64,000 bases of DNA from Ptiloglossa arizonensis. Lineage: Eukaryota > Arthropoda > Insecta > Hymenoptera > Colletidae. The notes beneath the pieces were generated by a model. The model was not told where the DNA came from, ran no database searches, and was given only the letters and a program-made list of their open reading frames with translations. Position numbers and translations under genes: made by a program. Positions 27,532 to 32,798 of the stretch are shown here, in pieces. Where the stretch lies: NCBI RefSeq assembly GCF_051014685.1, contig NC_135058.1, positions 12,712,811-12,776,810 of the forward strand, read 5' to 3'. How positions within the stretch are numbered: the stretch's first letter is position 1; each line of letters opens with the position of its first letter.

Positions 27532-29080
27532 TCCACCCCCCACCCTCACCCCCACCCCCTCCGCAACCCTATGCCATATAAAACACCGATCGTGGATTCA
27601 CACGAATGAGACACACCGTACGAGAGACACGCGTACCGTTAGGATATTTATTACACGTGTAAATATATATACGCAACGACTAGGGTAGAGATACGATTGT
27701 CAACGCCTTACTTGCGTTATAAATGCTTAATTTATATGCGGGCCCTAAGTACCCACCCCTCCCCCAAGCCCACACACTCGCTTCAGATTAACGATAGCAG
27801 ACGCGAGATACTCGTTCGCGTGCGGCCGATAAGGTGTGTTGCGCGATTACGAGCGATACTACTCCGTCGCGTACTCGCGCATTGTCTGTGATTAATGGTC
27901 GAGGTGAACGCGTACATGTACATAGTTAACGATTAACGGATAGCGGATAAGTCGAGCGATTTGTTTTTTTTTTCTCTTTTTTTTTTCGTTTTCTTTCTTT
28001 CTTTTCTTTTTGTAGACTGTCGGAACGGAATATATAGTTGTTCGACGAGCACCGGATTGAGAGATCGTTCTCGAGCCGTACGGTTTCACTCGCTGGAAGT
28101 CAGCGCTCAACCCTTTCGATGCGGAGATAACTGGAGGGGGGGACACGCGCGGTCGAGGCGAGATTAGTTGGCCGTTCAAGGTCGCTGAAGCGTTTCCCCC
28201 TCCTGTATCGCTTCGGTTCGTTATTCGCGCGGCGAGTCAACGATAGCGCTCGAAGCGGTAAAAACGGATCACGACTAGGACGTCACGTCCGCCCATGTAC
28301 GGATCAATCTTGATTCCAAAGATTCAGATTCGTGGCTACATCGTTAAGTCCACGCATAATGTCTAGAACAGACAGTGAACATATTAAGTGAACGTGTTAC
28401 CGTAGTGGCGAAAGATGAAGCAATGGGGAAGGAGTTGCGGAACGATATGACGGAGATTACCCTCCGAAGACCTTGACCGGTGAATAGATTTTGTTCCGGC
28501 TACGGTGAAGCGTTCTCTACGGAATAATTTCTCGTGTCGTGCGTCGCGCGATATCGTCTCCGTGTTCCAGGGAAACTCGTCGAGTCGCTTAATCGCAAAG
28601 AGAACAAGTCTTTTGTACGATGGAAATTTGAAGTCGAAAACAAAATCGAGCGCCCGTGGGCGTCGATAGCATCGATAGAGTCAACACTGCGAACGTATCC
28701 CATTGAGAGACTTAGTATTAGGAAGAATATTGGAACGCGAATATGTAAGATTGTTAGTGGTAATTTTCGATATTATTTTGTGTTAACTTCCCTGCTGCCG
28801 TTTTGTAAATTTTATCGATCAATTATTAAACTGTATCGTTGTTCGTTGTAAAATCATTCGAAGTAATTTAGTGTAAATATACGCGTAGAAAACTTTTAAC
28901 GCTCTGCTCGATACGTAAGACGTCATTTAATAGACGATACTGTTACACGATTAAACTAGTTTTGTAAGAGCTGAATCTTTTTGAAAGATACGTGACTTCC
29001 AATGTAATGGCAAATTATCCTTGAAAGATCAGTTATTTAAATTTGAAAATAAAATAAATTCAGAAAATAAAATGTACGAA
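27532..29080 (+). other. Probable 3' UTR and downstream flank of the secreted-protein gene
   Basis: Non-coding after the stop at 27531. It contains C-rich runs (27531-27560), a T-rich pyrimidine tract (27961-28015) and AT-rich sequence. The first good + strand poly(A) signals are three AATAAA hexamers at 29048, 29053 and 29066, preceded only by weaker ATTAAA near 28825. A 3' UTR of about 1.5 kb is plausible. The NAA15 exons that would be expected on the minus strand of this interval are not there. Confidence 0.45.
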
Positions 29081-29803
29081 TCGTTTACCAGAAATTGCAG
29101 GTAGGTAAGTCGCTCCAATTTCGGTGTTGTACTTTCAAACATTGCATCGCGTATACAGAGGGTGTTTTAACAATTTACAATAATTTAACGAGGACAAGTT
29201 ACCGATCGAACTGATCAGTTGTCAACCGTCGATAACGTGCAAGAGAAATTTCAAAAACATTTATTTCGAAGAAATCAAAAGCACCCGAACGTTTTTAAAT
29301 GGTACTATGTGACTTCTCCCTTGCCCAATGTTACTTTTTTAAACATTTATCATGGAACGCATAAATATACATATAATAGCTTGCTTTGATAATAATACAT
29401 AGAATTGACACGAAACACTAGAATGTTTGCAATAAAAATAAACAATGGTTTAATCTTTAAGAGTAAACTTGATTCGAGCATCCTGTAATCTGGTCGGGCC
29501 TAAAATCTTTGCACAAACCGATTGTCTATAAAGTGACATTATACGTTAACGTTACATATATTTTAATGCTCTTTACAGGACCAAAAAGAAGAAACGACTT
29601 CTTGGTTCTCTTTAAGTAAATCAAGGTAAATATTTTTGAAACTTTATTACCTTCGTCGTTTCGAATTACCGTAAATTGATAAAAAAAATACACCATTACG
29701 AAGTACAATCTATACATGTATAAAACATAAACAAGTCCACGAATGAGAGGTATAGCGTCGGTCGATAAAAATAATAAACGATATGCATGGAATGCAGACT
29801 TAC

Positions 29804-32798
29804 CGATGTCGATTACTTGCTCCTGCGTTGGATCGGGTAAAGGATTGTCGTACAGTTGTACATAAACGCCTATTGCACACATCGCTGCTTTGAAATAAAA
29901 TGGGTGAGCTCGAAGCACATCCTCTAACCTTAAAAGACCCACGTAAGCTCGCAAAGTCATCTTTCTCATACAGTAAGTATGAAAGTCAAATTGATCTTCT
30001 ATAATTTCAGAAAAATGCTGTAACCAATAGAACGTGTTTAAGAGTGTGTTACAGTACGTTAATACTCGCAGCAATTATGCGTTATACAACTCACCCTATC
30101 AACTTCGTAGCATTTTTTTAATGCTTCGCCATATTTTCCAAGGCGCTTGTAAGCAAAGGCTGTTTCTGTCTGAAACCACATGCACTGCATTTCGTTTAGA
30201 TTCTCCATAGCTAAGACACCTTCTCTTGTAAACTTTTCACATGTCTCTTCTGCTTCCTTGATAAGATTTGCACGTAACATGTACTTGGCGCATTTTGAAT
30301 TAATATATCGATCCGCAGTATCTAAGTCTTGTGCTTCGTCCAGCCATTTATAAGCTTCTTGAACATTACCGGCATGCTAGTTAGAATAAATGTGTACATG
30401 AAAATATTTTATTTCTAAGAATTTATTAAAGCAAAGTATCTTAAACGAAATCAAGACACATCTAACCTTGTAAATGCGACCTTTTGTAACAAAAAGTTCT
30501 ATAAGCGTAGGAGTATGTTCTATGGCAGCATCGATTTCGTTCAGTGCTTTTTCCGTATATCCAAGATGATCGTAATGTTGTGCTAAATAGTAGTAAGTCC
30601 ACAGTAACGCAGAAGCCGGCTCTCGTGGATTATCTTTTTCTTGATCACTAAAATGCCCATGAGCTTTCAATGCTTCTTTATATTGCAAAACCAAAGTCTC
30701 TATAATATCAACTTTTTCGACATCCCTATACAAGGAACGAAGATTTACAAACAGAGGCGGTACACCTTTATGAAGGCCTGTAATAAGAATAAAATATAAA
30801 TATGCAACTATGAATATTCAATTTGAACTTGTATTGTGAAAATAATACAAGTATATACTACCTCTTCGTAAGTATCGATCAACTAATGTTTTAAATTGAT
30901 CTCCTTTAGCGTAATTTAATTGCAAGCGACGCGGTGCTAGCGCTCGAGGAAATAGTTCTTCGTATCTTTGGAGCATAGCTAACACTTCTTCGGGTGATTC
31001 GTGTCTTTCAGCCTTTGATAGCCTAATATAGTATGTTGTATTTTCAGGATTTATATTTAAAAGATCTTTATAAACCTGTACTGCTGCTGCATATTGTTTT
31101 AATTGTAGTCTTAAATTACCTACAGTAAGAGATCATTGAATTTATAAATGAATGTTATACACTGCATTGACTTTATAAAACGTTCAATATCCTATGCAAC
31201 TAAGTTATATATCTAAAGAAAAAACAACTCACCGTATGTTTCCTTCACGGTAACTTTATCACAAATTTGATCACTATATCTGTCAAGATGTTTTAGAGCT
31301 TGTTCGCACTCCCCTGATTCTTGGATAACCATGTTCTGGTATAACAGCAACTCACTATGTTCGTAATCATAACAAATCTGCACATTTTATGAATATCCCT
31401 ATTATGTACTATCATAAGTAATATCTAGTTATAATTTATATTGTTAACATCCTCGCAAGAAATGAAAAGTACTGTATTATTTGCATATAAATATAATATA
31501 TTGTATTATATCAAAAAACATACCATAGGGGAGATTCGAAAAGTGTCTAAAATTTTGAGGGCCATTTCATAGTCCTTTAACAAATGATATGAGATGGCAA
31601 AACCAATCCATGACGCACGCTGTGTGGGACGTAACATAAATAACTGATATCTTGTGTCCTAAAAACAAATAATAAATATTAATATAATGCATAAAAAGTT
31701 ACACCCGTGACATAAATTTTCTAAACAAGAGTTTTATTATATCGAACATATTTATACTATTATTTCCAAGATACACATATTATACTGTTCAATCGATTAC
31801 TCTTATGTATTATGCAACATATGCAATCTATTATAGGTTTATTTGTGAATCATTAGTATACGATCAGTGATGATAAATCACGCGTAATATTATCTACATA
31901 CTTAAATACATATACAACTAACAAATTATACGTGATCATCATTACGTAAAAATAACTCTGTTAATGTAAACTTATGAAACACAAATATAATGATATAAAT
32001 GATACATTATAAACAAGAAATAAAAATAAAATGCTACAAATGAAACATTTACCTTATAACCCTCTAGATCTCTCATTTGAATTTGAAGCAGTGATAAATC
32101 CCTAAGGATTTGTATGTTATCCTTGTCCCATTTAAGGGCATTTCTGTAACACTTAATGGCTTCATCGTATTTCTTATCCGAGCGCTGTAGAAGTCCATAA
32201 ACATGCCAACAAACATGAGACTGCAAGTCGTTCCTGAGACCACGTCGGACATGATCGTATGCTTCTTCCTTGCGACCTAAGCAGTTCAGAGTGAGACCTT
32301 TCATTGCCAAGGTCTCTCCATGTTCGCTAAATTTAGGGTTTGATAAAATTTGCTTTGCAAACTTTATCCCATTTTTATACTGTTTATGTTCGTAACACCT
32401 CTGTAAGAAACATAAATACGTTTCACACGATAAAACGTTTTCATGAATTAAGTATCGTATCTTTATTTGACAATAACTGCATAAAATTTGTTACTATATA
32501 CCTATATATTTAAGAATATAGGTAATGTGTACTTGAATAAACTGGTATCGTCAAATGTTGCGAAAAACGTTCAGGAAATTGCGATTTGGTTCGCAATGTT
32601 CGAGAAACCTTCGCGATCCACGGTTGCCAGTGAAATTTTTACAGTTTTTCGAAGAGTGCTTCATCATTAAAGCATGATGAATACTCCTATTAGCCGGAGA
32701 GTGGGGTCCAAAACAGAGTATTTTGATCGCATGTTACTCACCAGAATTCGCTTAAACAAGGCATTTTCTTTGGGTGGTAAGGGATTGCTGGAGGGCAT
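29804..32798 (-). CDS. Naa15: NAA15, NatA auxiliary subunit; 3' part missing from window
   Basis: NAA15 is the TPR scaffold that holds the catalytic subunit NAA10 and docks NatA on the ribosome for co-translational N-terminal acetylation. Exons, in transcript order: 32742-32798, 32053-32400, 31524-31658, 31233-31377, 30862-31119, 30467-30777, 30095-30376, 29804-30017. All have GT/AG borders and reading phase is kept at each join, giving 583 codons plus 1 nt. The start is MPSSNPLPPKENALFKRIL, very close to the animal N-terminus. Exon 2 carries the near-invariant GLTLNCLGRKEEAYDHVRRG and VCWHVYGLLQRSDKKYDEAI; exon 7 carries ENLNEMQCMWFQTE; exon 8 carries DQFDFHTYCMRKMTLRAYV. The protein stops at the position where the Lys-rich linker and the last ~280 residues should follow, but no further exon is visible downstream to 27.5 kb or beyond. 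Reading through the last donor adds 92 unrelated codons to a stop at 29526. Confidence 0.95.

Follow-up and report, generated by a model that had tools for sequence, protein, structure and literature searches.

The window analysed here is a stretch of 64,000 nucleotides from the bee Ptiloglossa arizonensis (contig NC_135058.1, cited below as C11:12712811-12776810 of the species' own genome, which comprises 998.7 Mb in 2016 contigs). It contains the first eight coding exons of NAA15, the gene for the auxiliary subunit of the acetyltransferase NatA, and a gene for a putative secreted protein on the opposite strand; three more NAA15 exons lie to the left of the window on the same contig. The coding features of the locus are as follows (positions without a contig label are those of the window):

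32742..32798, minus strand: NAA15 exon 1, with the start ATG at 32798
32053..32400, minus strand: NAA15 exon 2
31524..31658, minus strand: NAA15 exon 3
31233..31377, minus strand: NAA15 exon 4
30862..31119, minus strand: NAA15 exon 5
30467..30777, minus strand: NAA15 exon 6
30095..30376, minus strand: NAA15 exon 7
29804..30017, minus strand: NAA15 exon 8, ending in the phase-1 donor GACATCG/gtaagtct
1..29803, minus strand: part of NAA15 intron 8 inside the window; a further 29,083 bp past the left edge lead to exon 9
24382..27531, plus strand: coding exon of the secreted-protein gene (1049 codons), antisense in NAA15 intron 8
C11:12683727-12683534, same strand as exons 1-8, left of the window: NAA15 exon 9
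C11:12683443-12683335, same strand as exons 1-8: NAA15 exon 10
C11:12682904-12682381, same strand as exons 1-8: NAA15 exon 11, with a TGA stop

The eight exons of the window, which an earlier note on this DNA had described as phase-consistent, were confirmed on the minus strand between 32798 and 29804, with GT-AG introns between them. Together they comprise 1750 nt, that is 583 codons and 1 base, and the donor at 29804 is therefore in phase 1. The protein encoded in the window could be aligned to the human chain 6c95_A (866 residues; human NAA15 chains in the PDB have up to 866 aa, with one construct of 840 and one numbered to 915) as far as residue 583, so the approx. 280 C-terminal residues that the note had reported as missing are indeed absent here. 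When ten NAA15 C-terminal parts (from P0010, a protein attributed to this species and described below, Megachile, a stingless bee, Apis, Ampulex, two social-wasp-like sequences, a mayfly, a louse and a beetle) were compared with the 64-kb window by tblastn, nothing better than E = 0.25 was obtained, which agrees with the claim that the window holds no exon for the linker or the C-terminal part. In a control search, the N-terminal part of Megachile NAA15 was cut into ten pieces of 43-60 residues; each of them was recovered in the window, the weakest at 1e-16. The human C-part, used with filters off, gave in the window a best match of E = 0.005, located in an Arg/Glu-rich low-complexity stretch (40161-40057), and its other leading matches were Lys/Arg/Glu-rich stretches of low complexity.

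A search of the genome with PF12569 revealed a C-terminal NAA15 exon at C11:12683327-12683449, on the same strand as exons 1-8, and the remaining exons were mapped in 40 kb fetched from the left of the window. Exons 9-11 encode 275 residues plus the stop, and carry the linker and the C-terminal part. Intron 8, which separates them from exon 8, is 58,886 bp long and has GT/AG ends; the remaining nine introns measure 77-430 bp. At the 8/9 junction the phase-1 donor supplies G and exon 9 starts with AG AAT CTG, the joined codon being Glu, as in the protein, and the 11 joined exons form an open frame of 858 codons. The order of the exons, their strand, splice sites and phase, and the product of their joining are all directly shown.

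The title of the earlier note says that NAA15 stops after exon 8. This stop reflects the edge of the window, and the gene continues on C11. Of the explanations which the note had offered, a huge intron holding the secreted-protein gene and running past the window proved correct, as exons 9-11 share contig and strand with exons 1-8. A truly shortened protein can be discarded as the main product.

The joined exons are matched by P0010, a protein of 809 residues whose contig (3,354 bases, source 'lgn') is distinct from that of the window. P0010 spans the 8/9 junction and is identical to the joined exons at 808 of its 809 residues, the sole mismatch being its first residue; its C-part matches exons 9-11 at 100%, and it covers profile positions 1-515 of 515 of PF12569 (701.8 bits, cut-off 33.3). 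P0010 for NAA15 and P0241 for the nested gene are each identical to the protein of their gene; their 'lgn' contigs, of 3,354 bases and up to 5,704 bases, respectively, are tentatively read as transcripts. Like other bee NAA15 models (PF12569), the 858-aa product has the full tetratricopeptide repeat (TPR) part, the Lys-rich linker and the C-terminal part, and its length is close to that of eight full-length bee models in the list, which range over 854-861 aa (two more have 814 and 834). The gene of this bee has, as measured here, one intron of 58.9 kb.

We conclude that NAA15 is very probably intact, with 11 coding exons over approx. 63 kb, with intron 8 lying between the TPR part (583 codons) and the linker with the C-part, with exons 8 and 9 most likely spliced in cis, and with the secreted-protein gene antisense inside the intron. 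The spliceosome would thus join exon 8 to exon 9 across 58,886 bp, and the product would be a normal NatA auxiliary subunit of 858 residues. The intron may have stayed long because it houses the secreted-protein gene and perhaps also regulatory DNA.

Four points weigh against this interpretation. The colinear layout of the NAA15 halves is also compatible with splicing between two separate transcripts, cis-splicing being a mechanism deduced from the layout. P0010 is taken for an assembled transcript of the same species from its source label, contig size and identity. Nesting beyond this genome is deduced from the tags printed for the two genes and from contig sizes, not from coordinates, and Hylaeus, among the nearest relatives, fails the same-contig comparison given below. 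In favour of the interpretation, full-length NAA15 models of related species are listed with single contigs, for example in Orussus (81,768 bases, a size listed also for the secreted-protein gene).

Several features of intron 8 were examined. The strict ratchet motif of recursive splicing, AG/GTRAG, was found at three sites in the 58,886 bp, none of them behind a 75%-pyrimidine stretch, and the same search of the opposite strand likewise gave three sites, none behind such a stretch. No tRNA and no Rfam family were detected in the window part of the intron. Apart from the nested gene and exon 8, 27 open reading frames were listed in the intron, 11 of them with a minimum of 120 aa and 16 with a minimum of 110 aa; nine of these were compared with Pfam, and none scored above the cut-off (best DUF7750, E = 0.084), a result that leaves room for multi-exon genes. 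Two tandem arrays are also present, one of approx. 10 copies of a 59-base unit (7337-7919) and one of approx. three copies of a 111-base unit (23943-24304), just before the nested gene.

The automatic models of many arthropods break at the exon 8/9 junction. Among the 120 NAA15 matches listed of 3,371, ranked by score to a 582-residue query and with early-cut models under-represented, 26 have fewer than 800 residues, and 20 of these 26 end at reference residues 580-586, which corresponds to the exon-8 donor (given this ranking, not an unbiased rate). Two further short models, Eufriesea P0009 and Cloeon P0054, diverge at this donor by eye, although BLAST ran on. The remaining four either reach the C-terminus without some earlier part (P0013, P0116) or end at 564 and 659 (P0052 and P0089, respectively).

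The search with the C-part only, restricted by design to proteins of similar length, gave 211 proteins, the named species being bees, wasps, beetles, butterflies, stick insects, an aphid, a louse, mayflies, a spider and a tick. Long introns are common in chelicerates, so the split-model pattern says little there. The exon-9 motif was present in 45 of the first 50 of the 120 C-part proteins listed, mostly near the start, after 0 to at least 30 residues; three of the other five have a variant of the motif and two start behind it. In two of the 45 (P0143 and P0145) the residues ahead of the motif are NAA15's own, which indicates that they are cut transcripts. The beetle Exocentrus has the two NAA15 parts under the consecutive tags NQ315_007649 and 007648. 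The stretched gene is probably the reason for the annotation of NAA15 as two half-genes in many arthropods; such split models would affect gene counts, lists of orthologs and calls of 'gene loss'.

A short NAA15 that ends in intron 8, produced by read-through of the exon-8 donor and early poly(A) addition, could be made alongside the full-length form, and we consider this improbable. The frame remains open for 92 codons beyond exon 8, the initial 3 kb of the intron has seven AATAAA/ATTAAA hexamers on the minus strand (those at 29648 and 29567 being closest to exon 8), and the Eufriesea model seemingly reads into the intron likewise. However, AT-rich sequence yields such hexamers by chance (the count has no control), and the tails of the short models of other species look unrelated by eye, as expected of prediction artefacts.

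It is very unlikely that each half is a transcription unit of its own on the common strand and that trans-splicing joins the two, as in the 'broken' genes of Kong et al. 2015. In favour of this, many arthropod annotations give the C-part as a protein of its own that starts at the exon-9 boundary, and N-part models ending at exon 8 occur. Gene finders, however, tend to yield split models at very long introns. Trans-splicing is not needed here, because the two parts follow each other colinearly on one strand of one contig and have canonical splice sites. As in NAA15, the halves of conserved proteins encoded by the trans-spliced genes of Kong et al. (PMC4667647) are annotated as separate genes in some species; in contrast to those genes, the NAA15 halves are colinear on one strand and ordinary cis-splicing suffices. 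According to that paper, mod(mdg4) alone is an event shared between orders, and the terms 'acetyltransferase', 'NMDA', 'Nat1' and 'CG12202' do not occur in its main text (PMC4667647). A search limited to an open-access library gave no paper joining NAA15 with trans-splicing in insects.

The two other options of the earlier note have a negligible probability. A local misassembly or inversion breakpoint hiding the missing exons, for which no support was seen, is contradicted by their normal order and orientation on the same contig and strand (only a wrong joint inside the intron could keep both), by the complete lack of N in the window and in four fetched stretches, and by the separately assembled P0010, which joins both NAA15 halves. 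For the window gene as a truncated duplicate of a complete copy elsewhere, equally hard to sustain, the whole-genome searches, which retain the best candidates only (15 scored with PF12569, 13 with P0010), gave one other trace of NAA15: of the 11 matches among the 13 candidates scored with P0010, ten belong to the NAA15 locus and one lies at C4:5056330-5056575. This piece has 58% identity over 82 residues, and its one DNA match (72.6%) is to NAA15 coding positions 1165-1402, with the exon 6/7 border near 1254. Because it includes a stop and passes this border without an intron, it represents a decayed fragment of a retro-copy (exons 6-7). No second complete NAA15 was found among the 15 and 13 scored candidates. 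For this genome, a false alarm is thus removed: the essential gene is whole, neither truncated nor misassembled.

The secreted-protein gene lies between exons 8 and 9 of NAA15. Directly before its ATG stands the acceptor-like ...ccgtttcag, which makes an upstream exon of the 5' untranslated region likely. The protein has a signal peptide, as judged by eye, and no Pfam family at E 0.01. It is 83.7% identical to its relative in Colletes and 82.5% to that in Hylaeus, the three grouping with a support of 99 in the SH-like approximate likelihood ratio test (quick tree, 12 proteins). By NAA15 identity Megachile was the best match, but the grouping of the nested protein places this bee near Colletidae, probably as a colletid or a near ally. 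Its relatives, conserved among insects, bear the pipeline names 'adhesive plaque matrix protein' or 'extensin', and a C-terminal motif like YRLPGDGGHFYFLTPQA is common to the nested protein and a moth relative.

In three species the tags of both genes were printed, and in all three the relative of the nested gene is within 1-2 tags of the NAA15 C-part:

Ampulex: KM043_013713 and 013711
Eretmocerus: QAD02_012397 and 012399
Tuta: O0L34_g10392 and g10393

In Ampulex and Eretmocerus there is one further tag between the two. The Tuta match to the nested protein has 31% query coverage and 47% identity, with the C-terminal motif in common. In addition, both genes have a contig of equal listed size in 19 of the 21 named species for which a size is given for each (hand count):

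equal size: Megachile, Xylocopa, Colletes, Eufriesea, Dufourea, Odontomachus, Halictus, Orussus, Cephus, Belonocnema, Diprion, Cotesia, Phymastichus, Ceratosolen, Athalia, Diachasmimorpha, Ampulex, Eretmocerus, Tuta
unequal size: Hylaeus; Heterotrigona (contigs 19 and 53 kb)

The size printed for a cluster refers to its longest contig, and 'same contig', as deduced from equal size, is telling mainly for small contigs, such as those of Orussus (81,768), Cephus (307,961) and Odontomachus (629,738). This genome is the only one in which strand and true nesting were observed. The tags and contig sizes suggest that the neighbourhood of NAA15 and the secreted-protein gene is common to Hymenoptera and possibly Lepidoptera.

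The architecture is of a known kind, a host gene whose long intron holds a nested gene, and NAA15 is a new example; a search limited to the open-access library gave no paper on NAA15 with a nested gene. In the tim2-2mit pair of Drosophila and Apis (PMC3786989), the intron of an unrelated host likewise holds an antisense coding gene, an arrangement kept between distant insects. The genes are different ones, and their nesting was not retained in the four Lepidoptera examined in that study; compared with that pair, the breadth of conservation of the NAA15 pair rests on tags and contig sizes, not on coordinates. The authors of that study suggested that intronic regulatory DNA helps to hold the tim2-2mit pair together (PMC3786989), and by analogy the same reasoning may apply to NAA15 and the secreted-protein gene. 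Tentatively, and with somewhat less than even confidence, we propose that the host-nested arrangement is an ancient insect linkage, dating back at least to the split of Hymenoptera and Lepidoptera and kept by regulatory DNA of the nested gene or by coupled transcription. The giant intron would then serve a conserved function within an essential housekeeping gene, and would account for the two-gene annotation of NAA15 in many arthropods. The two genes are a candidate for a long-conserved host-nested pair, in which shared regulation could be tested.

Divergence and base composition vary along NAA15, and exon 11, and to a lesser degree exon 8, is unusually diverged in this bee. In quick trees (23 hymenopteran proteins, LG+G4), the end branch of this bee was the longest for the NAA15 C-part, 0.423 versus 0.083 in Colletes and 0.078 in Hylaeus (the next longest being 0.299 for another sequence and 0.238 for Orussus; Megachile, 0.194). 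For the N-part it was 0.098 versus 0.050 in Colletes and 0.032 in Hylaeus, with two sequences having longer branches, and for the nested protein 0.157 versus 0.065 and 0.107, respectively. Exon by exon, against Colletes, Hylaeus, Bombus and Megachile, exons 1-7 and 9 were hardly above the usual level of divergence, and exon 10 showed a slight excess (30/36 identical residues versus 34/36). Exon 8 had 61/71 identical residues versus 69/71, and was less diverged than exon 11, in which 94 of 170 residues were identical to Colletes (Colletes versus Bombus, 124 of 169). The divergence of exons 8 and 11 could stem from GC-biased conversion, relaxed constraint or selection. Exons 1-8 have a third-position GC of 0.34 and exons 9-11 one of 0.56, and the two gene ends are therefore in different base-composition settings.

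Downstream of NAA15, a cytidine/deoxycytidylate deaminase-like exon (PF00383, 50.6 bits) was found at L008:5613-5954. On the other side, a divergent neighbour on the plus strand (33660-35651), which by eye we take to be the RNA polymerase III subunit RPC3 (POLR3C), starts approx. 0.9 kb from the NAA15 start codon.

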